Part shown: piece after piece, positions 3,993 through 26,315 of the stretch | Layout of the letters: every line of letters starts with the position of its first letter | How positions within the stretch are numbered: position 1 is the stretch's first letter | NCBI RefSeq assembly: GCF_000272405.2 | Contig: NZ_AJZM02000255.1 | Coordinates: 1 to 39,176, forward strand | Origin: Vibrio tasmaniensis 1F-187 | Lineage (GTDB): Bacteria > Pseudomonadota > Gammaproteobacteria > Enterobacterales > Vibrionaceae | Length of the DNA stretch: 39,176 bases | Reading direction: 5' to 3' | Made by a program: the position numbers and the translations under genes | Notes under the pieces: generated by a model | The model's database searches: none | Told to the model about the DNA's origin: nothing | The model's input: the letters and a program-made list of their open reading frames with translations, nothing else

Positions 3993-4034
3993 CTATTCTG
4001 CGCTTGCAACCAACTATTCTGCGTTTGCAACAAA
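3993..4034. repeat. 21-bp tandem duplication spanning the tupA stop codon
   Basis: Two adjacent 21-base units (3993-4013 and 4014-4034) are 19/21 identical. On the coding strand the first encodes FVANAE-stop and ends tupA. The second encodes LVASAE-stop in the same frame just beyond. The array therefore duplicates the last codons and the stop, leaving an in-frame relic of the C-terminus in the 3' UTR. Confidence 0.8.
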
Positions 4035-4820
4035 TAGCTGTTTGCCGTGCAGTTTAAAGTCGTTGATCAGTTTCTGGCCTTTAGGGTTAACCAACCAATC
4101 ACTGAATACTTTCGCTGCTTGGTAATTGATGCTTGGGTAGCGTTCTGGGTTAACAAGAATCACTTGGTAAGGGTTAAATAGGTTCTTGTCGCCTTGGAAC
4201 AACACTTTAAGGTCAAGTTTGTTTTGGTAAGCTAACCAAGTACCGCGGTCTGTCATGGTGTAGCCTTGCATTTCAGACGCCATGTTCAGAGTTGGGCCCA
4301 TTCCTTGACCAACGCTGCGATAGCCGCCAAAGTTCGGCTCCATCTTAGTTTGCGCCCAAATACCCATCTCTTTCTTATGAGTACCAGAGTCGTCCCCACG
4401 AGAAACAAACGTCACGTTGTTGTTCGCGATTGCTTTGAACACATCAGCTACTGCTTTTTGAGATTCAATCTTCGCAGGGTCGCTTTGTGGGCCAACGATA
4501 ACAAAATCGTTGTACATCAGCTTACGAGGTAAAACGCCGTAACCTTTTTCAACGAAGTTCGCTTCAGCTTTTGGTGCGTGAGTCATTACCAAATCAACAT
4601 CACCGTTTTCACCCATGCGAAGTGATTTACCCGTACCCGCAGCGAGAACATCAACCTTAATACCAGAATCCTTTTCGAACTCAGGCAATAAGTAGTCCAG
4701 TAAGCCTGAGTGGTAGGTACTTGTGGTTGTCGCCAATTTGATATGAGTGGTGTCTTCCGCGCTGCTAGCCGTGTAACTGACGATAGATAGAGCTGCAATA
4801 GTTAGAGGAATTGCTTTCAT
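4014..4820 (-). CDS. tupA: Tungstate-binding periplasmic protein TupA
   Basis: A 268-residue solute-binding protein for tungstate. The start at 4820 begins a good signal peptide (MKAIPLTIAALSIVSYTASSA), with cleavage near the AED. Upstream in-frame ATGs (to 4895) would bury the signal, so they are less likely. The mature N-terminus ATTTSTYHSGLLDYLLPEF is the TupA hallmark. LAAGTGKSLRMGENGDVDLV and SRGDDSGTHKKE follow, and are oxyanion-contact regions in the family. It is transcribed divergently from the two-component system. It has a long leader and a -24/-12 promoter at 4936-4950, so expression probably needs sigma-54 and an activator. Molybdate selectivity cannot be excluded from sequence, but the family name and motif favour tungstate. 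Confidence 0.92.
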   Translation of the reverse strand: MKAIPLTIAALSIVSYTASSAEDTTHIKLATTTSTYHSGLLDYLLPEFEKDSGIKVDVLAAGTGKSLRMGENGDVDLVMTHAPKAEANFVEKGYGVLPRKLMYNDFVIVGPQSDPAKIESQKAVADVFKAIANNNVTFVSRGDDSGTHKKEMGIWAQTKMEPNFGGYRSVGQGMGPTLNMASEMQGYTMTDRGTWLAYQNKLDLKVLFQGDKNLFNPYQVILVNPERYPSINYQAAKVFSDWLVNPKGQKLINDFKLHGKQLFVANAE

Positions 4821-4852
4821 TATTATTATGTCCATTCTGTTATAAATGAATG

Positions 4853-4891
4853 ACATGCCTCTATTTTTAAAGGGCTCAAAGAAGGGCATGT
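4853..4891 (-). promoter_or_regulatory. Hairpin in the tupA leader
   Basis: A perfect 7-base inverted repeat, ACATGCC (4853-4859) and GGCATGT (4885-4891), lies in the predicted 104-base 5' UTR of tupA. It could influence mRNA stability or initiation. It does not resemble a Moco/Tuco riboswitch well enough to be called one. Confidence 0.3.
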
Positions 4892-4935
4892 GCATAAGAC
4901 GCTAATTGTTGTAATTAGGAATCTACACCTAATAA

Positions 4936-4950
4936 GCAAGCTTAATGCCA
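4936..4950 (-). promoter_or_regulatory. Sigma-54 (-24/-12) promoter for tupA
   Basis: Read on the minus strand the site is TGGCATTAAGCTTGC. GG and GC are exactly spaced as in the consensus TGGCAC-N5-TTGC, with one mismatch in the -24 box and a T after GC. Transcription would start near 4924, about 104 bases before tupA. The divergent neighbour encodes a sigma-54 activator, which makes the site more credible. Confidence 0.75.
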
Positions 4951-5040: not shown

Positions 5041-5073
5041 GGACAAAATGTCGCACATTGTCCCTGTCGCACA
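5041..5073. promoter_or_regulatory. Candidate activator-binding region (UAS) between tupA and the response regulator
   Basis: This contains the palindrome GGACAAAATGTCG (5041-5053) and direct repeats TGTCGCACA at 5049-5057 and 5065-5073. GGACAA and TTGTCC are also inverted across 5041-5063. It lies about 90-125 bases upstream of the tupA -24 box, the usual enhancer distance, and just upstream of the regulator's ATG, so it could also mediate autoregulation. The same palindrome recurs at the fdh promoters. Confidence 0.6.
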
Positions 5074-5123
5074 AAAGGTTAATTGGTACACTCTGTCCCA
5101 ACTTTCCCCATCGGTTAATCATT

Positions 5124-6587
5124 ATGTCTTTACCTAGTTCACCTGCATCGAACCTCAACCCAAACACATTGACTCAATATCAAGCGTTTTCCGTCTTGGT
5201 CGTGGACGATGAAGTAGGGATGCAGGCTATTCTAAAGAAGGCTCTGGGTAAGTTCTTTGGCAAGGTATCGAGTGCAGGATCCGTTGAAGAAGCTGAAATA
5301 CTGCGTTCAAGCGAACATTTTGATCTCATTGTTCTTGATATCAACCTGCCAGGACGCTCCGGCATTGAGTGGGAAGAGGCTTTTAACAACAACGACAAAC
5401 GTGCTGATGTTATTTTCATGACTGGCTATGCTGATCTAGAGATGACCATATCCGCGCTTAAGCTTGGCGCTTCAGACTTCATTCTTAAACCTTTCAATTT
5501 AGAACAAATGATACAAGCTGTACTACGTTGTATGGATAAGCGACTCGACCAAAGAATGCAGTACGCGTTGAAGCGTGATGTTAGTCGTCATATCAAGACC
5601 GAACTGATCGGCAATTCAGACAAGACCAAACAGCTTAAATTGCTGATCAGTCAATTTGCTCCGTCTCGAGCTTCCGTTTTGATAGAAGGTGAGTCGGGTA
5701 CAGGTAAAGAGTTGGTTGCGCGAGGTGTACATGAAGCCAGTAAACGCACAGGTCCATTTGTGCCAATCAACTGTGGTGCGATTGCTCCAGAACTTCTAGA
5801 AAGTGAACTGTTTGGACATACATCAGGCGCATTTACCGGTGCGAAGAAAAACCGTGAAGGCCTTTTCCGAGTCGCAAGTGGCGGCACCTTGTTCCTAGAT
5901 GAAATAGGTGAAATGCCACTGCCAATGCAAGCAGCGCTGTTACGTGTGTTAGAGCAACGTACTATTCGTCCAGTTGGCAGTGAGAAAGAGATCGCTGTCG
6001 ATGTACGTGTCGTCGCAGCAACAAACCGAAACCTTCAAGAAGAGGTCGATAAAGGCCACTTCCGTCGCGATCTGTTCTACCGACTCAATGTACTTAAGAT
6101 TGATGTTGTGCCATTGAGAGAACGACCGTCTGATCTGATAGAGCTTGTTCCATACTTCACTCGTCTTTTATCTAGTGAACTGGGTATGCCGGTTCCAAAC
6201 TGGGCACATGAAGATATCTTGGCAATGAATGAATACGAATGGCCGGGCAATATCCGCGAACTTAAGAACTTAGTCGAAAGATGCATTCTTTTAGACAAGC
6301 CACCAGCACACTATTGGCGAGAAGTGAATGGTGATCCAGCCCCAACCAGCATTTCAGTGACGGTGTCACATGGGGCGGAAATACCAAACTTGAATAATGT
6401 AGACGCAGCTGAGGGTTACCCGAACACTTGGACACTCAAAGAAGTCGAGAAATCTCACATAGAACAACTGGTGAGTTTTCATGATGGCAATAAATCTGCA
6501 GCAGCGAGAGATCTCGGTGTGGCGCGTAAAACACTAGAGCGTAAGTACAAAGAATGGAACACAGAAGGCTCTGAATATGCCGATTAG
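5124..6587 (+). CDS. Sigma-54-dependent two-component response regulator (NtrC family)
   Basis: A 487-residue cytoplasmic transcription activator. The receiver domain (about 22-140) has acidic D28/D29, phospho-acceptor D72 (VLDINLPG), T100 and K122. The AAA+ domain has Walker A GESGTGKE (189-196), the sigma-54 contact loop GAFTGA (235-240) and Walker B TLFLDEIGEMP. A Fis-type helix-turn-helix (NKSAAARDLGVARKTLERKY) closes the protein. I chose ATG 5124; an in-frame TTG at 5058 would start within the putative operator and add a non-conserved tail. The 3' end overlaps the kinase gene by 11 bases, so they form one two-component system. Flanking -24/-12 promoters at tupA, fdhD, DUF3305 and the fdh operon are its likely targets. 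This is inferred from location, not shown. Confidence 0.93.
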   Translation: MSLPSSPASNLNPNTLTQYQAFSVLVVDDEVGMQAILKKALGKFFGKVSSAGSVEEAEILRSSEHFDLIVLDINLPGRSGIEWEEAFNNNDKRADVIFMTGYADLEMTISALKLGASDFILKPFNLEQMIQAVLRCMDKRLDQRMQYALKRDVSRHIKTELIGNSDKTKQLKLLISQFAPSRASVLIEGESGTGKELVARGVHEASKRTGPFVPINCGAIAPELLESELFGHTSGAFTGAKKNREGLFRVASGGTLFLDEIGEMPLPMQAALLRVLEQRTIRPVGSEKEIAVDVRVVAATNRNLQEEVDKGHFRRDLFYRLNVLKIDVVPLRERPSDLIELVPYFTRLLSSELGMPVPNWAHEDILAMNEYEWPGNIRELKNLVERCILLDKPPAHYWREVNGDPAPTSISVTVSHGAEIPNLNNVDAAEGYPNTWTLKEVEKSHIEQLVSFHDGNKSAAARDLGVARKTLERKYKEWNTEGSEYAD

Positions 6588-8604
6588 ACGTCATTGGTGG
6601 ACAAAGTGGGCGTTCCGGTTCAAAACCATGGTGCGTTATCGCCTGCTATTTCTAACATCCGCTCCCATCATTCTTACTTTGTGTGCGCTTGTCGCTATAA
6701 CACTGTATTGGTCAGTACATTACACGTGGCAGGGTGCTCTGATTGATGTCGATGAGCGTTTGGATGTTGCCGACAACAGTATCCATTTAATTCAGAACCA
6801 ACAGGCCTATAACGTTCAAGCATTTGCTGAGTCTTACAACTTCCGAATCAAACTCACGAGTGATATTTCGAAAGAAGAGCTCACACGTTGGGTTTCAGAA
6901 AACAAATCTCGCTATGAACTCGATTTTCTACGCTGGCGTAGCGTCGAGAGCATGGAGAAAAAGCTTGAATACCTCAACCTGACACACAAAGAATCGTTCT
7001 TTAGTGTATTGAGCCAAAACGAACTCAACGATTTAGACCAAAACCTTGCCAGGCAAGCCGAAGTCCCAATGCTCAATAGTCAAAATGTTGAAACTCGAGG
7101 TTTAGTTAGCCGCACCGTTGTGTCGATTCGTGACAAGAATGATCATGTAATTGGTTTTCTTGATGGCGGGATCCTCCTTAATAACAGCACACAGTTAGTT
7201 GATCAGATCAGCAATCTCATTTATCCGCAACGCGAGGGCTTTAATCGCCGCATTGGTACCGTCACTGTGTTCCTTGATGACCTACGTGTCAGCACTAATG
7301 TACCGTTGAGCAGCGAAGAAAGTGCAGGGCGCGCAATTGGTACTCGTGTTTCTCACGAGGTTCATTCTAGAGTATTGAATGAAGGCAAAGAGTGGCTAGA
7401 TAGAGCGTATGTTTACGACGCTTGGTACATCACTGCGTATCAACCGATTCATGACCAATTCGATAACGTCATCGGCATGCTCTATACCGGTTATCTGATT
7501 TGGCCATTGGTGGAAACGTACTTAACCAACCTTGGTGAAATCAGCATTACGATTGTGTTGTTGTTACTGGCTTCTGGTTTGATCGTTCACCGTGGTGCGC
7601 GTGATCTTTTTAATCCTATTGAACGCATCCATAAAGTCGTCAAGCTAGTGCAGATGGGGCAAGACAAGCGAATTGGTACTCTTGGTTTGAACGATCAACA
7701 CGAGCTGACTTTGCTCGCTAAACAATTCGATAAGATGTTGGATTTGCTGCACGAACGTAATCAAGAGATCCAACAAGCCGCTTCAGAACTCGAATGTAAG
7801 GTTCATTCTCGTACTGCTAGCTTGAAAGAGAAAACCGAAGAACTCGAACTACATATCAAACTATTAAACCAAGCTCGAGACAAGCTGGTGGTCAACGAAA
7901 AGTTAGCCGCGCTAGGCGAATTAACCGCGGGCATTGCCCATGAGATTAATAATCCGACAGCGGTGATTCTTGGCAATGTCGAATTAATGAAGTTTGAACT
8001 CGGTGACGAAGTCGCTCGTGTAGATGAAGAAGTCCACGCGATCATGGAACAGATTGACCGAATCCGAAATATCACACGAAGCCTGCTTCAGTATAGCCGT
8101 CATGGCGGTGTACAAGATGAGATCACTTGGCAACACATTAATCCAATCGTGGATGAAAGTATTACGCTCGTAAAAACAGGCGCGAAAAAGAAAGGCATTG
8201 TCTACGTATCACAACTGCATGCTAAAACGTCTGTGGAAGTTAACCGAAACCAACTTTTGCAGATTTTGGTTAACCTACAGATGAACGCGATTCATGCCAT
8301 GGACGGACAGGGCACATTGACTATCTCAAGTGAAGACTGGGTGGAGAATGGCGTGTCTCATGGTGCAATCGTTCATGTTGAAGATGAAGGGTGTGGTATC
8401 AAAGAAGAACAATTGAAACGCATCTTTTCACCTTTCTACACCACCAAACGTGACGGTACAGGCTTAGGCTTATCAGTATCTCAAAGTATCTTGAGCCAAA
8501 CGGGTGGCGAGATACGTGTCGAATCAGAAGTAGGCAAGGGAAGCCGCTTTAGTATCTACCTTCAGCAAAAAGCGACGCCACAGTTGTTGGTGTCTAACCT
8601 ATAA
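6577..8604 (+). CDS. Membrane sensor histidine kinase with periplasmic Cache-like domain
   Basis: A 675-residue kinase. TM1 is at about residues 22-48, a large periplasmic sensor region at 49-318 (dCache-like fold suspected), TM2 at 319-338, a HAMP at about 340-395 and a coiled coil up to 440. HisKA has the phospho-acceptor H455 in GIAHEINNP. The HATPase has the N-box (NLQMNAIHAM), DEGCGI (603-608) and GTGLGL (627-632). The class resembles DctB/NtrB-type kinases that pair with sigma-54 activators. The gene overlaps the response regulator by 11 bases, so they are co-translated. A periplasmic small-molecule signal such as formate, or a respiratory cue, is plausible but is not readable from the sequence. 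Confidence 0.93.
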   Translation: MPIRRHWWTKWAFRFKTMVRYRLLFLTSAPIILTLCALVAITLYWSVHYTWQGALIDVDERLDVADNSIHLIQNQQAYNVQAFAESYNFRIKLTSDISKEELTRWVSENKSRYELDFLRWRSVESMEKKLEYLNLTHKESFFSVLSQNELNDLDQNLARQAEVPMLNSQNVETRGLVSRTVVSIRDKNDHVIGFLDGGILLNNSTQLVDQISNLIYPQREGFNRRIGTVTVFLDDLRVSTNVPLSSEESAGRAIGTRVSHEVHSRVLNEGKEWLDRAYVYDAWYITAYQPIHDQFDNVIGMLYTGYLIWPLVETYLTNLGEISITIVLLLLASGLIVHRGARDLFNPIERIHKVVKLVQMGQDKRIGTLGLNDQHELTLLAKQFDKMLDLLHERNQEIQQAASELECKVHSRTASLKEKTEELELHIKLLNQARDKLVVNEKLAALGELTAGIAHEINNPTAVILGNVELMKFELGDEVARVDEEVHAIMEQIDRIRNITRSLLQYSRHGGVQDEITWQHINPIVDESITLVKTGAKKKGIVYVSQLHAKTSVEVNRNQLLQILVNLQMNAIHAMDGQGTLTISSEDWVENGVSHGAIVHVEDEGCGIKEEQLKRIFSPFYTTKRDGTGLGLSVSQSILSQTGGEIRVESEVGKGSRFSIYLQQKATPQLLVSNL

Positions 8605-8637
8605 CTTTTTAGCTTTAACCTCGAATCGAATCCAACC

Positions 8638-16163: not shown

Positions 16164-16991
16164 TTATTCACCTTTCACATCAAATTCAATCTTCTCTGCG
16201 CCAGTGAACACTTGGAAACGCAGGCCTTTAGCGCGAGCAATGGTCGTGATACCAAATTGCTGAGCCAAGTCTAAACCCATTTGCGTTACGCCTGAACGTG
16301 ATAACAGAACAGGAATACCCATCTGCGCCACTTTGATGACCATTTCAGAAGTCAGGCGGCCAGTAGTGTAAAAAATCTTATCTTCACCAGACTCTTTGTT
16401 AAGCCACATCTCACCAGCCAACGTATCTACTGCATTGTGACGGCCAACATCTTCAACAAACGATAGAACCTTGTCGTCTTTGCAAACAGCGCAACCATGT
16501 ACCGCGCCAGCTTTCTTGTACGTGTCGTTGTAATGAGTCAGTGCTTCTAAAGCCGTGTAAATTTCAGATTGCTTAATTTTGGTCTGAGGCACTTGGTAAT
16601 CTTCCAACTGCTTCATCACGTTACCAAACATGGTGCCCTGACCACAGCCAGAGGTCACCGTCTTCTTCTTAAGCGCTTGCTCAAGCTGGCTCGTATCTTC
16701 ATTGGTAATGACCGCTGCAGAGCTGGTTTCCCAATCGATGATGATAGATTCAACTGCTTCAGGGTCAGAAAGGAAGCTTTGGTTCTTCAAATAACCCAAG
16801 ACTAAAGATTCAGGACGCGAGCCGAGCGTCATCAGAGTTACGATCTCTTTCCAGTTCAACATGACGGTAAGAGGGCGTTCACAAGCGATCTGTTTGGTTA
16901 GCTTCTCACCATATTCATCAAACACTTCAACTTCGATTGTTTGAAGTGGGTTTTCACTAGTTTTTATTATGTTTGGTTTTACCACAGTCAC
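16164..16991 (-). CDS. fdhD: Formate dehydrogenase accessory sulfurtransferase FdhD
   Basis: A 275-residue protein of the FdhD family, which transfers sulfur from IscS to the Mo/W-bisMGD cofactor before insertion into formate dehydrogenase. Recognisable stretches are ERPLTVMLNWKEIVTLMTL, GRHNAVDTLAGE, TGRLTSEMVIKVAQMGIPVLLSRSG and AKGLRFQVFTGAEKI. The usual CxxC loop of E. coli FdhD (C121/C124) appears here as SGCGQGTMFG: C116 is present but the second cysteine is glycine (G119). Another CxxC, C167-C170 (HGCAVC), lies 50 residues on. The gene is divergent from the DUF3305 gene. A weaker -24/-12 promoter lies 96 bases upstream. Confidence 0.93.
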   Translation of the reverse strand: MTVVKPNIIKTSENPLQTIEVEVFDEYGEKLTKQIACERPLTVMLNWKEIVTLMTLGSRPESLVLGYLKNQSFLSDPEAVESIIIDWETSSAAVITNEDTSQLEQALKKKTVTSGCGQGTMFGNVMKQLEDYQVPQTKIKQSEIYTALEALTHYNDTYKKAGAVHGCAVCKDDKVLSFVEDVGRHNAVDTLAGEMWLNKESGEDKIFYTTGRLTSEMVIKVAQMGIPVLLSRSGVTQMGLDLAQQFGITTIARAKGLRFQVFTGAEKIEFDVKGE

Positions 16992-17086
16992 GTCCTACTT
17001 AATGAGATAGCGATTTAAAGAGATAAGAAGTTAACAAGAGGGTCTAACGCCGATCTTGTTCATCGATTCTTTAACTCATGCTTAAA

Positions 17087-17101
17087 GCAAATCTTATTCC
17101 A
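17087..17101 (-). promoter_or_regulatory. Putative sigma-54 promoter for fdhD
   Basis: The minus strand reads TGGAATAAGATTTGC, with GG and GC at correct -24/-12 spacing but CAC of the -24 box degenerate (AAT). The predicted start is near 17075, 84 bases before fdhD. It is weaker than the three sites at tupA, DUF3305 and fdh, and is supported mainly by company. Confidence 0.5.
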
Positions 17102-17260: not shown

Positions 17261-17275
17261 TGGCGTGTTTATTGC
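17261..17275 (+). promoter_or_regulatory. Sigma-54 promoter for the DUF3305/DUF3306 genes
   Basis: TGGCGTGTTTATTGC has TGGC and TTGC at exact -24/-12 spacing, preceded by T and followed by T. The predicted start is near 17287, 68 bases before the ATG. The 363-base gap 16992-17354 holds this site, the fdhD promoter, an inverted repeat and a palindrome at 17303. Confidence 0.72.
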
Positions 17276-17302
17276 TTTATAGCGCTTATAGGATTGAGCT
17301 AA

Positions 17303-17315
17303 GTACAAAATGTCC
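17303..17315. promoter_or_regulatory. ACAAAATGT palindrome copy in the DUF3305 leader
   Basis: GTACAAAATGTCC is one mismatch from the perfect palindrome GGACAAAATGTCC. It lies just downstream of the predicted DUF3305 start and about 230 bases upstream of that of fdhD. It could be an enhancer for fdhD or a negative site for DUF3305. Confidence 0.45.
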
Positions 17316-17354: not shown

Positions 17355-17819
17355 ATGTCTGAGATAAAAGAATTCAAAGAACAATACGAAAAAACAGAAG
17401 CAGCTTGGCCAATAGGTGTCCAAAGAATAGAGAAAGAGATCAAAACAGGTATCTGGGTAACCACTCAATGGGAATTGAAGGGGTTTGAATTGTCACCAGA
17501 AGATGACGCCCCAGACGTTTGTTTACTTCAATTACATAAAGATGAACGTACAGACTATCGATTCAACCTAAGCTCTCAGCAACCTAAGCTTTTCTTAGTA
17601 ATGGATAATGTCGATTCTGATGTTAAGCCCGTCATTCAGTTACTTACTGCCTCACAAACCGTTGCAGGGCAATACATGGACGGTGACAACCAAGTACTTT
17701 CCTACGACATTCCATTACCAGTACAAGCTTGGATGGAAGCGTTCATCGGTCGTCATGGCGAGTTATTAGAAACAAGACGTAAGAAACGCAAAGGCGCGGG
17801 AAGATCAAATGGCAACTAA
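17355..17819 (+). CDS. DUF3305 domain protein of the formate dehydrogenase locus
   Basis: A 154-residue soluble protein with no signal peptide or membrane segment. It contains aromatic/aliphatic stretches typical of the DUF3305 family (WPIGVQRIEKEIKTGIWVTT near the N-terminus) and a basic C-terminal tail (RRKKRKGAGRSNGN). The GGGTGAAGT before the ATG is the ribosome-binding site. It overlaps the DUF3306 gene by 11 bases. As I recall, the two DUFs occur as a pair in proteobacterial fdh clusters. The function is not known; an assembly role for formate dehydrogenase is inferred from location and from its sigma-54 promoter. Confidence 0.82.
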   Translation: MSEIKEFKEQYEKTEAAWPIGVQRIEKEIKTGIWVTTQWELKGFELSPEDDAPDVCLLQLHKDERTDYRFNLSSQQPKLFLVMDNVDSDVKPVIQLLTASQTVAGQYMDGDNQVLSYDIPLPVQAWMEAFIGRHGELLETRRKKRKGAGRSNGN

Positions 17820-18423
17820 CTTCTTTAGCCGTTGGTCTCAACGAAAGCTTGATGAATCCACTGACGAACCTTTGGAAGTAGAGCAAACACTGGAAGCAGC
17901 AGCGCCTCAGTCTTTAGAGAGTGAAGCTTCAGAAACCAATGAAGATGTTCATGTTGCTGACGTTCAAGATCCCGCACCAGAAGCCACTGAAGATTTGTCT
18001 GTTGCCCAATTATTGGTATCAGAAGCCTCTGAAAGCGTAAAAAAAGCGGCATTGCGTAAACTATTCCTCTCAGAAGAGTTCAACGTTCGTGATGGTTTAG
18101 ATGATTACGACGACGATTACAGCAATTTGAAGTCTCTGTCTGAAGGAGTTGCAGAAACTCTTCGCGATTGGGTAAAAGACAAGACAGAAGAAGACACAGT
18201 AAACGAACCTGAACAAGCCGCTGATAATGAAGAAGAAACTTTGATTGATGAGGTTGATGACTCTATTAATGAAGCCGAAGAGACCGAGTCAGAACTCAGT
18301 GAAAGTGACGAAATTGCGGGTGAAGAAAAAGGACTGTATAAAAACACAGTGACCGATAATAAAGCTACAATGTCAGACGAAGCTGACCTAAAAAATGTGG
18401 GACAAAATATACCACACAAATAA
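17809..18423 (+). CDS. DUF3306 domain protein, acidic, formate dehydrogenase locus
   Basis: A 204-residue, very acidic protein. The N-terminus MATNFFSRWSQRKLDE is the family's most recognisable motif. The core (about 84-125) reads KKAALRKLFLSEEFNVRDGLDDYDDDYSNLKSL, with the rest low-complexity Glu/Asp/Ser. It is predicted largely disordered, without membrane segments. It overlaps its DUF3305 partner and ends at a terminator (18452-18487). An adaptor or chaperone-like partner of the basic-tailed DUF3305 protein is a guess based on opposite charge. The biochemical role is unknown. Confidence 0.82.
   Translation: MATNFFSRWSQRKLDESTDEPLEVEQTLEAAAPQSLESEASETNEDVHVADVQDPAPEATEDLSVAQLLVSEASESVKKAALRKLFLSEEFNVRDGLDDYDDDYSNLKSLSEGVAETLRDWVKDKTEEDTVNEPEQAADNEEETLIDEVDDSINEAEETESELSESDEIAGEEKGLYKNTVTDNKATMSDEADLKNVGQNIPHK
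18400..18412. promoter_or_regulatory. Degenerate ACAAAATGT-type site at the end of the DUF3306 gene
   Basis: GGACAAAATATAC, within a larger TGTGG...CCACA inverted repeat, matches the left half of the 13-base palindrome but not the right. It is a possible distal half-site, 133 bases upstream of the fdh -24 box. A second partial copy (GTCAAAATGTAC on the minus strand) lies at 18427-18438. Confidence 0.3.
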
Positions 18424-18451
18424 TAGGTACATTTTGACTAAACACTCAATG

Positions 18452-18487
18452 AACCGCTTGCGACAAAATGTCCCAAGCGGTTTTTTT
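18452..18487 (+). terminator. Intrinsic terminator whose loop is the palindromic activator site
   Basis: AACCGCTTG (18452-18460) pairs with CAAGCGGTT (18474-18482) and a T-run follows, giving a textbook terminator for the DUF3305/DUF3306 unit. The loop (18461-18473) is CGACAAAATGTCC and contains the perfect palindrome GACAAAATGTC (18462-18472). That also places the palindrome about 75 bases upstream of the fdh -24 box, a usual enhancer distance. One sequence may serve as both RNA hairpin and DNA operator. Confidence 0.8.
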
Positions 18488-18544: not shown

Positions 18545-18559
18545 TGGCATGGCATTTGC
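18545..18559 (+). promoter_or_regulatory. Sigma-54 promoter for the formate dehydrogenase operon
   Basis: TGGCATGGCATTTGC, preceded by T and followed by T, has exact -24/-12 spacing and only one departure from TGGCAC-N5-TTGC. Transcription would start near 18571, leaving a leader of about 155 bases before the first gene. The leader ends with a small TCCAT/ATGGA hairpin by the ribosome-binding site. The 18424-18725 gap holds nothing else apart from the terminator. Confidence 0.78.
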
Positions 18560-18725
18560 TAAATAACGTTCATTATCAACTTTTTTGTAGATAGACGAGT
18601 TCAGGGTCTAACGAATGGCACACTAGCTAAAGAGTTAGTTGTTAACGGATTACTCAGCAAGTTCTCTATCGCTTACTACAATGAAGGTTGAACAGATTAT
18701 CCATGTCCATAGATGGAACTGAGCA

Positions 18726-20387
18726 ATGCTTAAACAATTATTAGAACAAGCAACTTCAAATAACGCTAAAGCAAGACTGTATGCATTTGAAAATACAGTA
18801 GAGTTAACAAATCTGATTCCACCTACTGTTAGCTACGAAAGCGGCGGTAACACACTTGTTATTGGTCCAACTGCGATCATTGAAAGTGCTGCGGCGCAAT
18901 TACCTCAATTAACGAGCTTAACCTTATTGTCAACAGACGGCGAAAAGGGCACAAACCCAGAACTGTACTTCGCGAATTCGGTTCAAGTATCGGGTTTCCT
19001 CGGCACGTTTGAAGTCATGATTGAGAGTAAAGGCACATCAAGCAACCTAGCGAAAGTCGCCATTAATCACGATTGTTTCGATGTTGTTCTAGACCTATGT
19101 CTGAACAGCTGCATGACAGAAGAAGTACCTGTTCCTGGTTATTACCCAGTAGGGCGAGGCTATCCAAAACTGGCCGAAGCACTGGAAGAGATTCCAACGC
19201 TAATGGGCACGTTCGATAAGCCTAAGTTCTTCCGTTTAGACACCGACCTTTGTGCGCACAGTTCACGTGGCGTTAAAGGCTGTGAGCGTTGTGTTGATGC
19301 TTGTCCTGCTGGCGCACTATCAAGTGAAGGCTCAGACAAGACAGGTCACAAGATCGAGATTAACCCTTACCTATGTCAGGGCGTTGGGACTTGTGCAACA
19401 AGCTGTCCTACAGAAGCGATTACCTATGCGCTTCCAAATCCTGACGATACGCAAAAGTTCATTGAACGTACGCTAGCTAACTATGAACATGCAGGCGGTC
19501 TGGACCCAATCGTACTTATCTGTAGCTCACGTCATGAAACTTACAACGTGATGGCTCTTAAAGCGCTACCAGATAACGTGATTCCAATCGTTGTTGAAGA
19601 ATTGCCTTCTATTGGTATTGATACTTGGTTTGCAGCGTTAGTGAATGGCGCAACTCAGGTTCTGTTTGCTGCTTCTCGCTTTATGCCAGAGACGATCATT
19701 CGTGTCCTAAATAACGAAGTAGGGATCGCTCAAGAGTTACTAGACCAAATCGGTGTTCCAAAAGAAACCATCGATATCCTGTATTTGGAATCTCTACGTG
19801 AAGGGCCTCCAACACTGTGTGTTGATTCGTTCGATCTTGCACTTGGCGATCTTCAAGGCAATAAACGTCAACGTCTATTCACAGCACTTGACGCGATGTC
19901 TTCATCTCGTATTCCTGTTGAAAACATTGTTGAGCTTCCTTCGAATGCGCCTTATGGCACGGTTTCATGTGAAAGCAAAGATTGTACTTTGTGTATGAGT
20001 TGTGTGGCGGTTTGTCCTACACGTGCTCTTCATACCGATGGCGCGTCTCCATCACTTAAGTTTGTAGAACAAGACTGTATTCAATGTGGTCTGTGTGAAA
20101 AGGCATGTCCTGAGAATGTTCTTACTCTGACTCCTCGTATGAATTGGGTGAAAGAAGAACGTCAGAAGGCTGTTGTGATTCATGAAGAGAAAGCAGCGGA
20201 ATGTTTACGTTGTCATAAACCATTCGCACCGCAGTCTATGATTGACATGTTACAAAGCAAGTTACGCGGTCACTCTCATTTCTCAGATGAGACAGCAATT
20301 AATCGTATTGCGATGTGTGAAGACTGCCGTGTGGTAGACATGTTCGATTCAATGGCTCAAGACCCATTGAAACAATTGAAATACTAG
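18726..20387 (+). CDS. Multi-cluster 4Fe-4S ferredoxin-like protein of the fdh operon
   Basis: A 553-residue cytoplasmic iron-sulfur protein. After a 165-residue N-terminal part with C117/C125/C129 come two ferredoxin motifs (C176, C186-xx-C189-xxx-C193; C217, C223, C227). A 190-residue middle domain follows (260-410; FAASRFMPETIIRVLNNE, resembling HdrA/MvhD-like domains). Two canonical CxxCxxCxxxC motifs (420-430, 451-461) and paired CxxC (493/496 and 531/534, zinc- or rubredoxin-like) complete it. No signal peptide or membrane segments are seen. It is the first gene after the sigma-54 promoter, 3 bases before the chaperone gene. It may carry electrons or help mature FdhA; the exact role is unknown to me. 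Confidence 0.85.
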   Translation: MLKQLLEQATSNNAKARLYAFENTVELTNLIPPTVSYESGGNTLVIGPTAIIESAAAQLPQLTSLTLLSTDGEKGTNPELYFANSVQVSGFLGTFEVMIESKGTSSNLAKVAINHDCFDVVLDLCLNSCMTEEVPVPGYYPVGRGYPKLAEALEEIPTLMGTFDKPKFFRLDTDLCAHSSRGVKGCERCVDACPAGALSSEGSDKTGHKIEINPYLCQGVGTCATSCPTEAITYALPNPDDTQKFIERTLANYEHAGGLDPIVLICSSRHETYNVMALKALPDNVIPIVVEELPSIGIDTWFAALVNGATQVLFAASRFMPETIIRVLNNEVGIAQELLDQIGVPKETIDILYLESLREGPPTLCVDSFDLALGDLQGNKRQRLFTALDAMSSSRIPVENIVELPSNAPYGTVSCESKDCTLCMSCVAVCPTRALHTDGASPSLKFVEQDCIQCGLCEKACPENVLTLTPRMNWVKEERQKAVVIHEEKAAECLRCHKPFAPQSMIDMLQSKLRGHSHFSDETAINRIAMCEDCRVVDMFDSMAQDPLKQLKY

Positions 20388-20396
20388 GAGTTGGCC

Positions 20397-21065
20397 TTGG
20401 ATACTCATTTGGATCAGGCACAAGAGCCTGAGCTCGCAAAAGAATTAAAGCAAGAACAGACACTAAGAACTGAAATCTATCTGGTTCTTTCTGCATTGTT
20501 TCGTAGCGCACCTTCTGAAGAGGTGATCAACTTTCTCAAGACGCTAGACATTGAAGCGTCTGAGAGTGCGATGCAAAAGGCTTGGATTGCGATTCAACAA
20601 GCCGCAACCGAATCAAACCGCGAAGCACTAGAAGATGAGTATCAGAATCTTTTCATTGGCATTGGCCGCGGAGAGATTGTTCCATTTGGCTCTTGGCATA
20701 GAACTGGCGCCATGATGGAAAAACCATTAGCAGAGATTCGTCATGACCTAGAACTTTTAGGCATTGAACGTGATGATCAAGTGAAAGAACCAGAAGATCA
20801 TATCGCGGCTCTTTGTGAAGTAATGGCGATGCTAACCGATGAAGAAGACGCGCTACAACAAGCCGTTTTCAATAAACATATCGGGCCTTGGTTTAACTCT
20901 TTTACACGTCAGCTTGAAAGTGCAGAAAGTGCGAACTTCTACAAATCAGCAGCACAGCTATGTGAAGCATTCTTAACGTTGGAGCAGGTTCGTTTCAGCG
21001 TGAATACAAAAAGCAGTAAACACAAATTAAAGATTGATGTGAAAAACGTCACTGATTACGAGTAA
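20397..21065 (+). CDS. TorD-family molybdoenzyme chaperone
   Basis: A 222-residue, all-helical cytoplasmic protein. The TorD/DmsD family signature appears as EYQNLFIGIGRGEIVPFGSWH (about 84-104), with EDHIAALCEVMAMLTDEE after it. Such chaperones bind the Tat signal of a molybdoenzyme and hold it until the cofactor is inserted. Here the natural client is FdhA. A TTG at 20397 sits 6 bases after a perfect AGGAG; the TTG at 20391 abuts it and is less likely. The gene follows the ferredoxin stop within 10 bases. Confidence 0.88.
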   Translation: MDTHLDQAQEPELAKELKQEQTLRTEIYLVLSALFRSAPSEEVINFLKTLDIEASESAMQKAWIAIQQAATESNREALEDEYQNLFIGIGRGEIVPFGSWHRTGAMMEKPLAEIRHDLELLGIERDDQVKEPEDHIAALCEVMAMLTDEEDALQQAVFNKHIGPWFNSFTRQLESAESANFYKSAAQLCEAFLTLEQVRFSVNTKSSKHKLKIDVKNVTDYE

Positions 21066-21138: not shown

Positions 21139-21342
21139 ATGATGAAAGATAACAAAGAAATAGATACAAGCCGTAGAGACTTACTCAAAGGTTTAACGAC
21201 TGCAGCCGTTGCTGGTGCCGTTGTCGCTGGTACAACGAAAGTGGCAACTGCTTCAGAAACGGTTGAAATGCCGAAAGAAGACGTGAAGAAGACGGGCTAT
21301 CGTGAAACGCAACATATTCGCGATTACTACGACACACTTTAG
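21139..21342 (+). CDS. Small twin-arginine peptide of the formate dehydrogenase region
   Basis: A 67-residue protein consisting mostly of a Tat signal: SRRDLLKG (residues 11-18) followed by an alanine/valine-rich segment and VATASE. About 30 hydrophilic residues follow, ending HIRDYYDTL. It matches the 'formate dehydrogenase region TAT target' family that I recall beside FdhA in many proteobacteria. AAGGA precedes the ATG; the second ATG (21142) is equally possible. It lies 10 bases before fdhA. It is probably a small periplasmic or membrane-anchored accessory subunit, function unknown. Confidence 0.85.
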   Translation: MMKDNKEIDTSRRDLLKGLTTAAVAGAVVAGTTKVATASETVEMPKEDVKKTGYRETQHIRDYYDTL

Positions 21343-21352: not shown

Positions 21353-24208
21353 ATGAAACTTGTCAAACGCTCCGATAGTGTGAGCAAAGAAACCAATCAA
21401 CTGGGTGTGTCTCGACGTGCCTTCATGAAAAACACCTCATTAGCAGCTGGTGGCGCGGTAGTAGGCGCAAGTCTATTCGCTCCAGGCATGATGAAAAAGG
21501 CGCAAGCTAAGTCAGTCGATCCTGAAGCAAAAACAGAAGTGAAACGCACTATCTGTTCTCACTGTTCTGTGGGTTGTGGTATTTACGCTGAAGTTCAAAA
21601 CGGTGTTTGGACGGGTCAAGAGCCTGCATTCGATCACCCATTCAACGCTGGTGGACACTGTGCTAAAGGTGCAGCTCTGCGTGAACACGGCCACGGTGAG
21701 CGTCGTCTTAAGTACCCAATGAAATTGGAAGGCGGTAAGTGGAAGAAGCTTTCTTGGGAACAAGCGATTGAAGAGATCGGTAACAAGGCACTAGAACTTC
21801 GTAAAGAGTCTGGCCCTGATTCGGTTTACTTCCTAGGTAGTGCAAAACACAGTAACGAGCAAGCTTACGCATTCCGTAAGATGGCGTCTTTGTGGGGAAC
21901 AAACAACGTTGACCACCAAGCGCGTATTTGTCACTCAACCACAGTAGCCGGTGTTGCAAACACTTGGGGTTACGGTGCGATGACAAACTCGTTCAATGAC
22001 ATGCACAACTGTAAATCGATGCTGTTCATTGGTTCAAACCCTGCAGAAGCTCACCCAGTAGCAATGCAGCACATCCTAATCGCGAAAGAGAAGAACAACT
22101 GTAAGATCGTTGTGGCAGATCCTCGTCGTACGCGTACGGCTGCGAAATCTGATCACTATGTTTCTCTACGCCCGGGGTCAGACGTTGCGTTTATCTGGGG
22201 TGTGCTATGGCATGTCTTTGCTAATAAGTGGGAAGACAAAGAATTCATCCGCCAACGTGTATTTGGCATGGACGAGATCCGTGAAGAAGTCGCGAAGTGG
22301 AGCCCAGCAGAAGTTGAACGCGTAACAGGCGTAAGCGAAGAAGACGTTTACCACACAGCAAAACTGCTTTCTGAGAACCGTCCAGGTTGTATCGTTTGGT
22401 GTATGGGTGGTACTCAACACACGACGGGTAACAACAACACACGAGCTTACTGTGTACTTGAGCTTGCGCTAGGTAACATCGGTAAATCAGGCGGCGGTGC
22501 AAACATCTTCCGTGGTCACGATAATGTACAAGGCGCAACTGACCTTGGCGTACTGTCTGACACACTTCCAGGTTACTACGGCTTGTCTGAAGGTTCTTGG
22601 CGCCACTGGTCTAAAGTTTGGGACATCGATTTTGACTGGGTGAAAGGACGTTTCGACGACAACGCATACGGCGGTCAAAAACCAATGAACAGTGCAGGTA
22701 TTCCTGTATCTCGTTGGGTTGATGGCGTACTTGAAGACAAAGACAAGATCCGTCAGCGCGAAAACATCCGTGCCATGTTCTACTGGGGTCACGCGGTGAA
22801 CTCTCAGACTCGTGGTCCAGAGATGAAGAAGGCGATGCAGAAGCTGGATATGATGGTTATCGTTGACCCATATCCAACAGTTGCAGCAGTGATGAACGAT
22901 CGCACAGATGGCGTTTACTTGCTTCCAGCAACCACTCAATTTGAAACCTACGGCAGCGTAACGGCATCAAACCGTTCTCTACAGTGGCGCGACAAGGTTG
23001 TTGATCCTCTGTTCGAATCTAAGCCTGATCACGAAATCATGTACCTTCTTTCTAAGAAGCTTGGTTTCTCTGATCAACTGTTCAAAAACATCCGTGTTGA
23101 GAACAACCAACCGTTGATTGAAGACATCACTCGTGAATTCAACAAAGGTATGTGGACGATCGGCTATACAGGTCAAAGCCCAGAACGTTTGAAAGAACAC
23201 CAGCAAAACTGGCACACGTTCCACAAAACAACGCTTGCTGCAGAAGGCGGCCCAGCGAATGGCGAGACTTACGGTCTTCCTTGGCCATGCTGGGGCAACC
23301 CAGAGATGAAACACCCAGGTACGCATATCCTTTACGATACGTCTAAACCGGTTGCTGAGGGCGGCGGTAACTTCCGTACTCGTTTCGGTGTCGAATTTGA
23401 AGGTCAAAGTCTATTAGCTGAAGACAGCTACTCAAAAGGCAGCGAAATCAAAGACGGTTACCCAGAATTCAGTGACAAACTGCTGAAACAACTGGGTTGG
23501 TGGGACGATCTAACCGCAGAAGAGAAAGCTTCAGCGGAAGGTAAGAACTGGAAGACTGACGTTTCTGGTGGTATCCAGCGTGTGGCTATCAAACACGGTT
23601 GTATCCCGTTTGGTAATGCGAAAGCGCGTGCGATTGTTTGGACATTCCCAGACCGTGTACCTCTACACCGTGAGCCACTTTACACGCCACGTCGTGATCT
23701 TGTTGCTGATTACCCAACTTGGGACGACAAAGAAGCGATTTTCCGTGTTCCTACGTTGTACAAGTCAATTCAAGACCAAGACAAGTCTGCTGAATACCCA
23801 ATCATTCTGACTTCTGGTCGTCTGGTTGAGTACGAAGGTGGTGGTGAAGAAACACGTTCAAACCCATGGCTAGCAGAACTTCAACAAGAGATGTTTGTTG
23901 AAGTGAACCCGAAAGACGCAAACGACATTGGCTTTAAAGATGGTGATGATGTTTGGGTTGAGGGTGCAGAGAAAGGCCGTATCAAGGTGAAAGCGATGGT
24001 CACTCGTCGTGTGAAACCGGGTTTAGCGTTCTTGCCGTTCCACTTCGGTGGTAAGTTTGAAGGCGAAGATTTGCGTTCTAAATACCCTGAAGGCACTGAT
24101 CCTTACGTTATTGGCGAAGCAGCCAATACAGCAACCACATATGGTTACGACCCTGTCACGTTGATGCAGGAAACGAAAGTAACCCTTTGTAATATTCGTA
24201 AAGCGTAA
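21353..24208 (+). CDS. fdhA: Formate dehydrogenase catalytic subunit (W/Mo-bisMGD), cysteine form
   Basis: A 951-residue periplasmic enzyme oxidising formate to CO2 and passing electrons through FdhB to FdhC. The Tat signal is VSRRAFMKN (RR at 21-22). One 4Fe-4S cluster is bound by C68, C71, C75 and C103 (CSHCSVGCG...C). The metal ligand region QARICHSTTVAGVANTWGYG aligns with E. coli FdnG/FdoG but has Cys (C193, codon TGT) in place of selenocysteine, with the essential His next. MGGTQHTTGNNNTRAYCVLE and GNIGKSGGGANIFRGH are cofactor-contact regions. The C-terminal domain includes SGRLVEYEGGGEETRSN. Nearby tupABC suggests tungsten may be the physiological metal. AGGAG stands 8 bases before the start. 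Confidence 0.95.
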   Translation: MKLVKRSDSVSKETNQLGVSRRAFMKNTSLAAGGAVVGASLFAPGMMKKAQAKSVDPEAKTEVKRTICSHCSVGCGIYAEVQNGVWTGQEPAFDHPFNAGGHCAKGAALREHGHGERRLKYPMKLEGGKWKKLSWEQAIEEIGNKALELRKESGPDSVYFLGSAKHSNEQAYAFRKMASLWGTNNVDHQARICHSTTVAGVANTWGYGAMTNSFNDMHNCKSMLFIGSNPAEAHPVAMQHILIAKEKNNCKIVVADPRRTRTAAKSDHYVSLRPGSDVAFIWGVLWHVFANKWEDKEFIRQRVFGMDEIREEVAKWSPAEVERVTGVSEEDVYHTAKLLSENRPGCIVWCMGGTQHTTGNNNTRAYCVLELALGNIGKSGGGANIFRGHDNVQGATDLGVLSDTLPGYYGLSEGSWRHWSKVWDIDFDWVKGRFDDNAYGGQKPMNSAGIPVSRWVDGVLEDKDKIRQRENIRAMFYWGHAVNSQTRGPEMKKAMQKLDMMVIVDPYPTVAAVMNDRTDGVYLLPATTQFETYGSVTASNRSLQWRDKVVDPLFESKPDHEIMYLLSKKLGFSDQLFKNIRVENNQPLIEDITREFNKGMWTIGYTGQSPERLKEHQQNWHTFHKTTLAAEGGPANGETYGLPWPCWGNPEMKHPGTHILYDTSKPVAEGGGNFRTRFGVEFEGQSLLAEDSYSKGSEIKDGYPEFSDKLLKQLGWWDDLTAEEKASAEGKNWKTDVSGGIQRVAIKHGCIPFGNAKARAIVWTFPDRVPLHREPLYTPRRDLVADYPTWDDKEAIFRVPTLYKSIQDQDKSAEYPIILTSGRLVEYEGGGEETRSNPWLAELQQEMFVEVNPKDANDIGFKDGDDVWVEGAEKGRIKVKAMVTRRVKPGLAFLPFHFGGKFEGEDLRSKYPEGTDPYVIGEAANTATTYGYDPVTLMQETKVTLCNIRKA

Positions 24209-24219
24209 GGAGTCTTAAA

Positions 24220-24828
24220 ATGGCTAGAATGAAATTTCTTTGTGACACCAAACGTTGTATCGAATGTAACGGTTGTGTCACTGCATGTAAGAACGAAAAT
24301 GATGATGCTCTGGAATGGGGTATTCAACGTCGCCGCGTTGTGACACTGAACGATGGTGAACCGGGTGAAAACTCTATCTCAGTCGCATGTATGCACTGTA
24401 CTGATGCCCCTTGTATGGCAGTTTGCCCAGCAGACTGTTTTGAACATACAGAAGACGGCATCGTACTTCATAATAAAGATCTATGTATCGGTTGTGGTTA
24501 CTGCTTGTTTGCTTGTCCGTTTGGCGCACCTCAATTCCCTAAACAGGAAGCCTTTGGTGAGCGCGGTAAAATGGACAAATGTACCTTCTGTGCTGGCGGC
24601 CCTGAAACAGAACCAGGTTCTGTGGAAGAGCGTCAGAAGTACGGTGCGAACCGTATTGCTGAAGGCAAGCTACCAATGTGTGCTTCGCTTTGTTCAACAA
24701 AAGCGCTGCTTGCAGGTGATGCTGAGCAAGTCTCTGATATCTTCCGTCAGCGTGTTGTAGAACGCGGAGCGAAAGGTGCTGGTTGGACAGACGGCAACGA
24801 CCTTTCTTACGATGCGATGAAGAGCTAG
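24220..24828 (+). CDS. fdhB: Formate dehydrogenase iron-sulfur subunit
   Basis: A 202-residue ferredoxin-like electron-transfer subunit with four cysteine clusters: CDTKRCIECNGCVTACK, CMHCTDAPCMAVCPADC, CIGCGYCLFACPFG, and CTFCAGG plus MCASLCSTKA. It relays electrons from FdhA to the cytochrome b subunit. It has no Tat signal of its own, so it should be exported with FdhA. It lacks the C-terminal TM helix of E. coli FdnH and is shorter (about 290 there), resembling the FdhB of epsilon- and gammaproteobacterial FdhABC. It is preceded by AGGAG and 11 bases after fdhA. Confidence 0.93.
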   Translation: MARMKFLCDTKRCIECNGCVTACKNENDDALEWGIQRRRVVTLNDGEPGENSISVACMHCTDAPCMAVCPADCFEHTEDGIVLHNKDLCIGCGYCLFACPFGAPQFPKQEAFGERGKMDKCTFCAGGPETEPGSVEERQKYGANRIAEGKLPMCASLCSTKALLAGDAEQVSDIFRQRVVERGAKGAGWTDGNDLSYDAMKS

Positions 24829-24841
24829 TTAGGAGAGACAT

Positions 24842-25915
24842 ATGCTTACAATGTTTAAGCGTCTCTTCCTTGTTGTGCTGCCGATGTTGGCAGCACTAGC
24901 AATGCTGTCTCCTTTGAGTCATGCATCTGAGACGAACTCATCACAAACTCAATCGAGCTCTGCTGAAAGAGAAATCACACAACTTGCTGGCGCTGATTTT
25001 TGGCGACAAGTAAGAAACGGTGAGGAAGGTTACACCACATCTCAATCTGCTGAGCACGGTGTGTTAATCAGTACGCCCGGGCAAACGTGGTACATATTGA
25101 AAGAGAAGTGGATGTCGCCAGCCGGTGCCGTCGCTATCTTTGGCAGTATTGCTTTCGTTACTCTAATGTACGTTGTGATTGGCCCATTAATGCTGAGTGC
25201 GCCAAGAACTGGCCGTAAGATCAAGCGTTGGTCTCGACTGGATCGTGCGTTGCACTGGAGCATGGCGTTTACTTTCTTAACGCTCGCGTTCAGTGGTTTG
25301 ATGTTGGTTTACGGCAAGCACTTTTTGAAGCCGTATATTCCAACTGACCTTTGGGGCTTTATCGTTCTATTGGCGAAGCAATACCACAACTACATCGGCC
25401 CGATTTTCTATGTGCTATTGATGGCTGTTCTTATCAAGTGGTGGCGCAAGTCGATCTTCAAAATGGTCGATATTCAGTGGTTCATCAAACTAGGCGGCAT
25501 GGTAGGGAAACACAAAGGTTCTCATCCATCGGCAGAGTTTTCGAACGCGGGTGAAAAAGCGCTATTTTGGCTGCTTATCGTTATGGGCAGTGTCGCAGCG
25601 ATCAGTGGCTTGGTGTTAGATTTCCCAATCTTTGGCCAAACACGACGTGATATGGAGCTTTCGAACTTAGTTCACATGCTTGCTGCTCTGATCCTTATCT
25701 GTGGTTTTGTGTTCCACATCTACATCGGCCTGTTCGGTATGGAAGGCGCACTAGAAGGTATGGTAACGGGCGAAGTCGATGAAACTTGGGCTAAAGAACA
25801 TCATGACCTTTGGTACAAAGAAGTGATGGAACAAGAGAAAAACGGCGTTGAACAAAGCGCTAACGTAGCAACAGAGAAAATGGAAGGGGTGAATAAGAAT
25901 GAACAAACCTCATAA
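24842..25915 (+). CDS. fdhC: Formate dehydrogenase cytochrome b556 subunit
   Basis: A 357-residue membrane subunit that binds two b hemes and reduces quinone. An N-terminal signal peptide (to about residue 29, LSHASE) precedes a periplasmic segment. TM helices lie at about 94-118, 138-158, 172-200, 241-260 and 275-298. Candidate heme ligands are H138 (RALHWSMAF), H182, H278 and H292 (LVHMLAA...FVFHIYIG). The FSNAGEKALFW motif is typical of the FdnI/FdoI family. The signal peptide and extra N-terminal domain make it longer than E. coli FdnI (about 217). The last codons overlap the next gene by 17 bases. Confidence 0.93.
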   Translation: MLTMFKRLFLVVLPMLAALAMLSPLSHASETNSSQTQSSSAEREITQLAGADFWRQVRNGEEGYTTSQSAEHGVLISTPGQTWYILKEKWMSPAGAVAIFGSIAFVTLMYVVIGPLMLSAPRTGRKIKRWSRLDRALHWSMAFTFLTLAFSGLMLVYGKHFLKPYIPTDLWGFIVLLAKQYHNYIGPIFYVLLMAVLIKWWRKSIFKMVDIQWFIKLGGMVGKHKGSHPSAEFSNAGEKALFWLLIVMGSVAAISGLVLDFPIFGQTRRDMELSNLVHMLAALILICGFVFHIYIGLFGMEGALEGMVTGEVDETWAKEHHDLWYKEVMEQEKNGVEQSANVATEKMEGVNKNEQTS

Positions 25916-26315
25916 GGGTATTTGGGTTGCTTACATCCTAAGCTGCTTTACACCATTTACTTGTCTTCTCTCTGGTGTGATTGCCATTATCTACGCGGGC
26001 TATCGTTTAGATAAAGGCGAAGACGGCGAAGTAGTGGATACCCATTACTACGGCTTGATTCGCTCGTTCTTTTTGAACCTGACGTTTTTTGTTGTGCTTA
26101 TCGTCACGGTAGCGACCTCAAACGGCGTGTTAATTGGTGTGAACGATTACTGGTATCAAAACCATATTATCGATGACATCGCTTACTACATTCCATATGT
26201 GGGCATGTTATTTGGTGGTGTGGCGATTGTGGTGTGGTTTATTCGTATGTATCAAGGCATGCAGCGTTTAAGTCAAAACCTACCGCAAAACCCGACAACA
26301 GGTCCAAACCTTTAA
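25899..26315 (+). CDS. Small membrane protein, last gene of the fdh operon
   Basis: A 138-residue protein with about four hydrophobic segments (near 10-33, 50-72, 88-100, 102-118), resembling DUF4870/Tic20-like proteins. It begins inside fdhC (17-base overlap) behind GGGGTGAATAAG, so it is translationally coupled to the cytochrome subunit. A terminator follows 83 bases after the stop. No function is assignable. Assembly or membrane anchoring of the Fdh complex is a guess from position. Confidence 0.78.
   Translation: MNKPHKGIWVAYILSCFTPFTCLLSGVIAIIYAGYRLDKGEDGEVVDTHYYGLIRSFFLNLTFFVVLIVTVATSNGVLIGVNDYWYQNHIIDDIAYYIPYVGMLFGGVAIVVWFIRMYQGMQRLSQNLPQNPTTGPNL

Follow-up and report, generated by a model that had tools for sequence, protein, structure and literature searches.

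A predicted formate-responsive two-component sigma-54 system at the formate dehydrogenase cluster of Vibrio tasmaniensis, with one enhancer lying in a probable terminator hairpin

The stretch of Vibrio tasmaniensis 1F-187 DNA analysed here (39,176 nucleotides, contig NZ_AJZM02000255.1; hereafter 'the window') carries tungstate-type (tup) and molybdenum cofactor (mob) genes on the minus strand and, divergent from them, a response regulator (RR) and a histidine kinase (HK), with the genes of a formate dehydrogenase (FDH) further along. A first-pass annotation of the window had claimed four -24/-12 sites upstream of tupA, fdhD, DUF3305 and fdhX, all of which are indeed present, and a sigma-54 activator with intact GAFTGA motif plus its kinase encoded between them, which is borne out in that the tupA promoter lies on one side of the pair and the other three beyond it. 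The argument concerns the following features:

5124..6587, plus strand: RR, NtrC-type response regulator with ATG start, receiver domain, AAA+ domain with GAFTGA, and Fis-type helix-turn-helix (HTH)
6577..8604, plus strand: HK, histidine kinase with an sCache_3_3 sensor, in which R237, T240 and T256 match formate residues of PacF
4014..4820, minus strand: tupA-like substrate-binding protein gene (NF041772, 252 bits, cut-off 400)
16164..16991, minus strand: fdhD, sulfurtransferase for FDH (TIGR00129, over cut-off)
17355..17819, plus strand: DUF3305 gene (PF11749)
18726..20387, plus strand: fdhX, iron-sulfur protein (Fer4 domains)
4935..4950, minus strand: TGGCATTAAGCTTGCT, sigma-54 promoter of the tupA operon, one mismatch
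17086..17101, minus strand: TGGAATAAGATTTGCT, sigma-54 promoter of fdhD, two mismatches, weakest of the four
17261..17276, plus strand: TGGCGTGTTTATTGCT, sigma-54 promoter of DUF3305-DUF3306, two mismatches
18545..18560, plus strand: TGGCATGGCATTTGCT, sigma-54 promoter of the fdhX operon, one mismatch
5042..5052, unstranded: GACAAAATGTC, upstream activating sequence 1 (UAS1) of tupA, a perfect palindrome
5085..5098, unstranded: GGTACACTCTGTCC, second tupA-side site, imperfect
17304..17314, unstranded: TACAAAATGTC, enhancer-like site, imperfect, downstream of the DUF3305 promoter and upstream of the fdhD promoter
18426..18438, unstranded: GGTACATTTTGAC, second site upstream of fdhX, imperfect
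18462..18472, unstranded: GACAAAATGTC, UAS1 upstream of fdhX
18451..18487, plus strand: hairpin and T run after DUF3306, a likely intrinsic terminator holding the fdhX enhancer (fold and covariation)

Scanning the window with the consensus TGGCACN5TTGCW yields 189 matches, about the chance level (shuffle mean 185.4), among which the tupA and fdhX sites are the only two with at most one mismatch; judged from the window alone, the fdhD and DUF3305 sites are indistinguishable from chance. These two gain credibility because they are conserved across genomes that carry the RR. Among 30 such genomes having RR, tupA, fdhX, fdhD and DUF3305 (own genome included; 'RR+ genomes'), the 350 base pairs (bp) upstream of tupA contain a GG-N10-GC site with at least 9/11 consensus letters in 29, those upstream of fdhX in 28, of DUF3305 in 26 and of fdhD in 24, the last being the site that the first-pass annotation had marked as weaker. 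Such sites occur in shuffled upstream regions at a rate of about 2%, and upstream of the control genes mobA, torD and fdhA in 2/30, 3/30 and 3/30 genomes. The exceptions are G021 for the tupA promoter, and G001 (8/11) and G041 for that of fdhX.

Part of this regulation is already on record. According to the accessible portions of PMC9817140, VP1510-VP1515 are down 3.17-4.75 log2 in a V. parahaemolyticus dRpoN strain, VP1501 by 1.45 and VP1508 by 1.84, the latter two being given as hypothetical proteins; VP1501, VP1508 and VP1510 are also marked there as V. cholerae RpoN peaks in chromatin immunoprecipitation sequencing (ChIP-seq; citing Dong and Mekalanos 2012). In genome G030, the tupA promoter is identical, letter for letter, to the site printed there for VP1501, and the fdhX promoter matches the VP1510 site, taken with two ambiguous letters; the VP1508 pattern has no exact match in the loci of this analysis, so that VP1508 is equated with DUF3305 by similarity and by its place in the gene order. 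According to these published data, fdhX is RpoN-dependent, as are, probably, tupA and DUF3305.

Absent from the first-pass annotation is a palindrome common to the regions upstream of the promoters, GACAWWWTGTC with TG/CA flanks (sites were scored by mismatch count, a strict position weight matrix being too harsh for imperfect copies). It is perfect at tupA in 27/30 and at fdhX in 29/30 RR+ genomes, and a perfect copy accompanies a tupA promoter of at least 9/11 in all 57 tupA-bearing loci of a scan of named genomes, some species of which are shared with the first genome set described below. At tupA, UAS1 is accompanied by an imperfect second site at a distance of 45 bp, centre to centre, a spacing kept in 23/23 genomes with a recognised second site (7/30 have none); at fdhX the distance is 33-35 bp in the 28/28 genomes having both (2/30 do not). 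Two perfect palindromes 22 bp apart are seen in at least nine members of the family sample, also described below. The spacings of 22, 34 and 45 bp step by about one helical turn and therefore suggest side-by-side binding at paired sites. The second tupA-side site precedes the start of RR by about 25-40 bp and may also serve the control of RR itself. In the own genome the palindrome alone occurs at 13 places, against 8 for a reversed control, and the composite of palindrome and promoter matches only the two window sites; the regulon thus looks local, and no wider one is claimed. A palindrome at 745-755 falls inside the mobB-moeA-like frame and was taken as chance, as were additional composite matches away from tup and fdh genes (e.g., G009 C3, G011 C1, G032). 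An enhancer-like stretch (GGGACAAAATATACC) is found at window 18398-18412, close to where the DUF3306 gene ends, and part of it (AAATATACC) recurs in many relatives; being coding, it could also be due to chance.

We compared the distribution of regulator, targets and sites in two genome sets. In the first, comprising 61 genomes (own, genus, and other families of the order), RR, tupA, fdhX, fdhD and DUF3305 were each found in 32 at the thresholds used, and RR and the four targets coincide except in G013 and G022 (RR only) and in G014 and G015 (tup and fdh genes, no RR). The composite was matched in 30/30 genomes with RR and tup, as well as in two genomes devoid of these genes (G020 and G032); with the reversed control composite, the 61 genomes yielded one match. 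In the second, a family sample of 197 genomes in which composite matches were tallied irrespective of place, tupA was found in 150 and RR in 143, and 137 of these 143 carry the composite (seven control matches in all); in five of the other six, the two elements are present at tupA in a different spacing, and the sixth, G222, is devoid of tupA. Matches were also obtained in 9/54 RR-negative genomes, six of which look unrelated to tup/fdh, either by place or for want of tupA. G072 (93% complete) and G141 (87% complete) have an HK beside tup with RR missing or partial, and the matched sequence of the RR-negative genome G201 (85% complete), on which alone it was judged, resembles fdhX sites.

Upstream regions of RR-bearing and RR-lacking genomes were compared, as the first-pass annotation had proposed. 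Six genomes in which tup and fdh genes occur without RR, and without HK in the fetched stretch (G014, G015, G071, G087, G177, G183), show no palindrome in the scanned stretches and no site of at least 9/11 at the four genes. In G080, which has tup and no RR, a 9/11 tupA site is kept with no adjoining palindrome and with fdh genes absent from the vicinity, an apparent case of decay. A side observation is that several loci of genomes without RR (L024, L025, L121-L124) hold fdhD-tupABC-mobA as one co-oriented block.

The RR itself has the make-up of a sigma-54 activator: (i) its receiver matches Response_reg, and 32/32 proteins have the phospho-acceptor Asp in a DINLP/DIRLP motif, (ii) AAA+ Walker motifs and the GAFTGA loop are present in the window protein, and (iii) the DNA-binding end matches HTH_8 (E 3e-8). 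It scores 232 bits against the formate hydrogenlyase activator model of NCBIfam, which needs 830, and reaches the curated cut-off of none of the 25 NCBIfam models listed as matches. RR is predicted to be a phosphorylation-dependent activator of sigma-54 promoters. When GAFTGA status was read by alignment, the 30 RRs accompanied by tup showed GAFTGA (28) or GSFTGA (2), and in the named-genome scan, where tupA lies beside RR in 57/58 loci, GAFTGA or GSFTGA was seen in 55 of the 57 tup-bearing loci, L111 and L114 not being parsed. RR without nearby tupA occurs in four cases, namely G013, G022, G222 and V. albus (L105); absence was established genome-wide for tupA, fdhX, fdhD and DUF3305 in G013 and G022, genome-wide for tupA in G222, and within the fetched 10 kb on each side in V. 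albus. All four RRs have lost GAFTGA, with phospho-acceptor and Walker A kept, and all four adjoin mobA; in these samples, as far as they could be parsed, an RR without tup is thus also an RR without the sigma-54 contact loop. On the best RR tree, from which five near-identical genomes were left out (rooting and the placing of L104 were not used), this takes two changes, the number of losses being uncertain. At L023, L034, L105 and L125, where RR-HK stands beside mobA with no tup genes nearby, and with GAFTGA gone and the receiver Asp kept, the regulator may now work with another sigma factor. In V. metoecus OP3H (L104:10001-11444) the RR match has a length that is no multiple of three and a very long branch, so that this RR is without a single open frame, reflecting either a real change or a sequencing error.

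Taken together, these comparisons support the earlier proposal that this regulator drives the promoters as one regulon: enhancers are shared, both elements are absent from the six tup- and fdh-bearing genomes without RR, and GAFTGA is lost in the four RRs without nearby tupA. An alternative would be that the promoters are RpoN-dependent and answer to a different enhancer-binding protein, with RR and HK controlling something else. It draws on the published RpoN dependence for which no activator is named in the accessible text of PMC9817140; the absence of enhancers and promoters from the six tup- and fdh-bearing genomes without RR, and the loss of GAFTGA where tup is absent, make it very improbable. 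By gene order, we take VC1522 and VC1521 of V. cholerae to be RR and HK, and VC1523 to be tupA. A peak of the regulator AphA in chromatin immunoprecipitation lies between VC1522 and VC1523 (PMC6855506, available in part), and the palindrome might accordingly belong to AphA or some other regulator. The sequence printed for that peak in the available part does not include the palindrome, which is also absent from tup and fdh genes in RR-negative genomes; we regard this possibility as even more remote. In the literature searched, in so far as it was accessible, VC1522 itself appears in two papers only, as that AphA neighbour and in an expression list. In one table of PMC5816637, seen in part, VC1510-VC1518, VC1523 and VC1524 have positive values, and its text has VC1514-VC1516 up in ribD and ribN mutants.

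Going beyond the first-pass annotation, the HK sensor points to formate as the probable signal. It matches PF17202 at 98.3 bits (cut-off 28.8), and its residues R237, T240 and T256 are conserved in 37/37, 37/37 and 36/37 sensors of an alignment of the window protein with 36 of 91 usable stretches. They correspond to the PacF formate residues R142, T145 and T158 reported in PMC12501870 (available in part), an equivalence that rests on motif order and on the alignment with structure 8py1, the second Thr lying 19 residues after the Arg in HK and 16 in PacF. The two structures best aligned by VIA, 8py0 and 8py1, are both formate-bound. Searched singly by sequence against the PDB, without profile or fold, the HK sensor gave a weak match (E 0.02). 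It might instead be that RR drives the regulon as proposed while HK senses another small carboxylate, or metal or cofactor status: the ligands of Cache domains are diverse, and in Foldseek, in contrast to VIA, 8py0 comes fourth and 8py1 ninth, with several non-formate Cache sensors above or beside them; HK is still found with mobA at four loci lacking tup; and the 8py1 match spans 128 residues, so that a large part of the sensor (in the modelled fragment, probably residues 60-180 or thereabouts) has no counterpart in it. The sCache_3_3 assignment, the conserved R/T/T triad, the formate-bound best VIA structures and the fact that the target enzyme oxidises formate speak against such a signal, which we consider rather unlikely but the most serious competitor of formate. 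The own genome encodes a second sCache_3_3 domain, in a methyl-accepting chemotaxis protein (MCP; L131, G000 C126:8021-8341, minus strand), a candidate formate chemoreceptor in which the spacing of R, +3 T and +16 T equals that of PacF.

The fdhX palindrome forms the top of a longer hairpin with a T run after it (together 18451-18487, -18.9 kcal/mol, z -6.1; seven T at 18481-18487). In an alignment of 30 distinct fdhX sites (six duplicates left out), the five outer stem pairs form in 76% of cells versus 48% in shuffles (0/500 as high), and 45 cells are changed on both sides versus 17; when the stem is slid along the alignment, pairing falls to 35-45%. The tupA palindromes have no such outer stem (mean -5.4 versus -15.0 kcal/mol at fdhX), and 19/36 fdhX sites combine a stable hairpin with at least six T in eight bases. 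The hairpin is thus probably also a terminator, one that in many relatives would end the DUF3305-DUF3306 unit. That it is merely an extended DNA operator is unlikely in view of the covarying outer stem, its absence at tupA, and those 19 sites; such a reading would draw on the consensus terminator scanner, which called none at this hairpin, on the 10/36 fdhX sites without a stable hairpin, and on the T-rich stretch that also follows 12/27 tupA sites, so that a T run alone says little. The scanner probably missed the hairpin owing to an internal C-C mismatch in the stem. The role of enhancer would then be general, and that of terminator, if real, would vary with the clade.

The remaining genes of the cluster are as follows:

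1..1746, minus strand: mobB-moeA-like fusion, frame open at the window edge, last gene of the tup operon visible; the name MobB/MoeA is tentative, given from the look of the sequence
1746..2330, minus strand: mobA, molybdenum cofactor guanylyltransferase (TIGR02665, over cut-off)
2308..3027, minus strand: tupC-like ABC ATPase (Pfam ABC_tran; NCBIfam TupC 106 bits, cut-off 400)
3038..3736, minus strand: tupB-like permease (NF041773, 178.7 bits, cut-off 320)
17809..18423, plus strand: DUF3306 gene (PF11748)
20391..21065, plus strand: TorD/DmsD-type chaperone (PF02613; DmsD/TorD models under cut-off)
21139..21342, plus strand: small protein with Tat-like signal (frame read; no Pfam match)
21353..24208, plus strand: fdhA, catalytic subunit of FDH (TIGR01591)
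24220..24828, plus strand: fdhB, FDH3 beta (NF038355, over cut-off)
24842..25915, plus strand: fdhC, cytochrome b (TIGR01583, over cut-off)
25899..26315, plus strand: short last gene, no family matched

Between HK and fdhD lie genes for an MCP, an MscS-type channel, a protein with an AAA_22 match and an ABC-F-like protein. The MCP gene (8890-10509, with an sCache_2 sensor) is found downstream of HK here and in at least eight relatives among the fetched stretches. An Rfam search of the window gave no match.

Based on this evidence, all of it comparative and drawn from sequence, we propose, with a probability of roughly 0.7, that a dedicated formate-responsive two-component sigma-54 system controls the FDH regulon. 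HK would bind periplasmic formate via its sCache_3_3 module and phosphorylate RR, dimers of which would occupy the paired sites, GACAWWWTGTC and its imperfect partner at a distance of 34 or 45 bp; by looping, RR would then activate sigma-54 polymerase at tupA, for metal import and cofactor synthesis, and likewise at fdhX, for the enzyme and its assembly proteins, as well as at DUF3305 and fdhD. The link between tungstate uptake and FDH that the first-pass annotation had drawn is supported by comparison; its word 'tungstate' is less secure. Besides the hairpin and Foldseek results given above, several points weigh against our proposal: (i) a site with at most one mismatch in the DUF3305/fdhD interval is recognisable in under half of the RR+ genomes (13/30, or 14 counting G007, where a perfect palindrome overlaps the DUF3305 start); (ii) the six RR-negative genomes fall in three places of an FdhA tree (seven near-identical loci left out) and may represent one to three lineages rather than six independent tests; (iii) the 'tungstate' label of the tup genes reflects homology under curated NCBIfam cut-offs, the TupA model being the sole family match of the tupA product, and FdhA likewise scores 477.7 bits against a cut-off of 666; (iv) Cache folds are widely shared; (v) Atu0526 R115A still bound formate, and more tightly, though chemotaxis was lost (PMC8698456, seen in part), so that the Arg alone is no proof of a formate site; and (vi) in an electrophoretic mobility shift assay, the VP1510 promoter was not shifted by RpoN on its own, according to the accessible part of PMC9817140.

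Comparison with known systems helps to place the proposal. In E. coli, formate dehydrogenase genes are under the control of the formate-responsive sigma-54 activator FhlA, a single cytoplasmic protein with its own formate-binding region and without receiver domain. Here, in contrast, one finds a two-component pair, with a receiver in RR and a periplasmic Cache sensor in HK, and metal import and cofactor genes in addition. Domain order, GAFTGA and Fis HTH of RR are those of NtrC-type pairs such as AtoSC, ZraSR and DctBD, a class for which paired upstream sites are known; targets and sensor differ. The fold of the HK sensor is shared with the Cache_3 formate chemoreceptors (PacF, Atu0526, McpF and the 8py0/8py1 proteins), and its R/T/T triad with PacF; unlike those chemotaxis receptors, HK is a kinase that probably feeds transcription, and its sensor is larger. 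Finally, the RpoN regulon of V. cholerae and V. parahaemolyticus in PMC9817140 likewise comprises the fdh operon, VP1501 and VP1508, and its accessible text names no activator, enhancer or signal for them, for all three of which candidates are offered here. The first-pass annotation, for which such a circuit was not known to have been described in detail, needs amending for the enzyme operon, whose RpoN control was known; activator, its sites and its signal are new as far as the searched literature shows (no paper on activator or kinase, nor one plainly on an enhancer inside a terminator, was found among titles and abstract openings, most subscription papers being outside reach).

Our analysis offers signal, activator and sites for a conserved regulon of the Vibrionaceae that includes two genes left unnamed in published RpoN tables, and it predicts a formate-responsive histidine kinase by which the supply of metal and the assembly of the enzyme would be coupled in a single switch. 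That targets and sigma-54 contact loop are lost together provides a natural experiment, and an enhancer inside a terminator would constitute a compact cis element. It is tempting, if doubtful, to speculate further that this formate two-component regulon, parallel to FhlA, has RR binding and DUF3305-DUF3306 transcription affect each other at one palindrome; if true, an occupied enhancer would compete with passing polymerase at the single fdhX palindrome.

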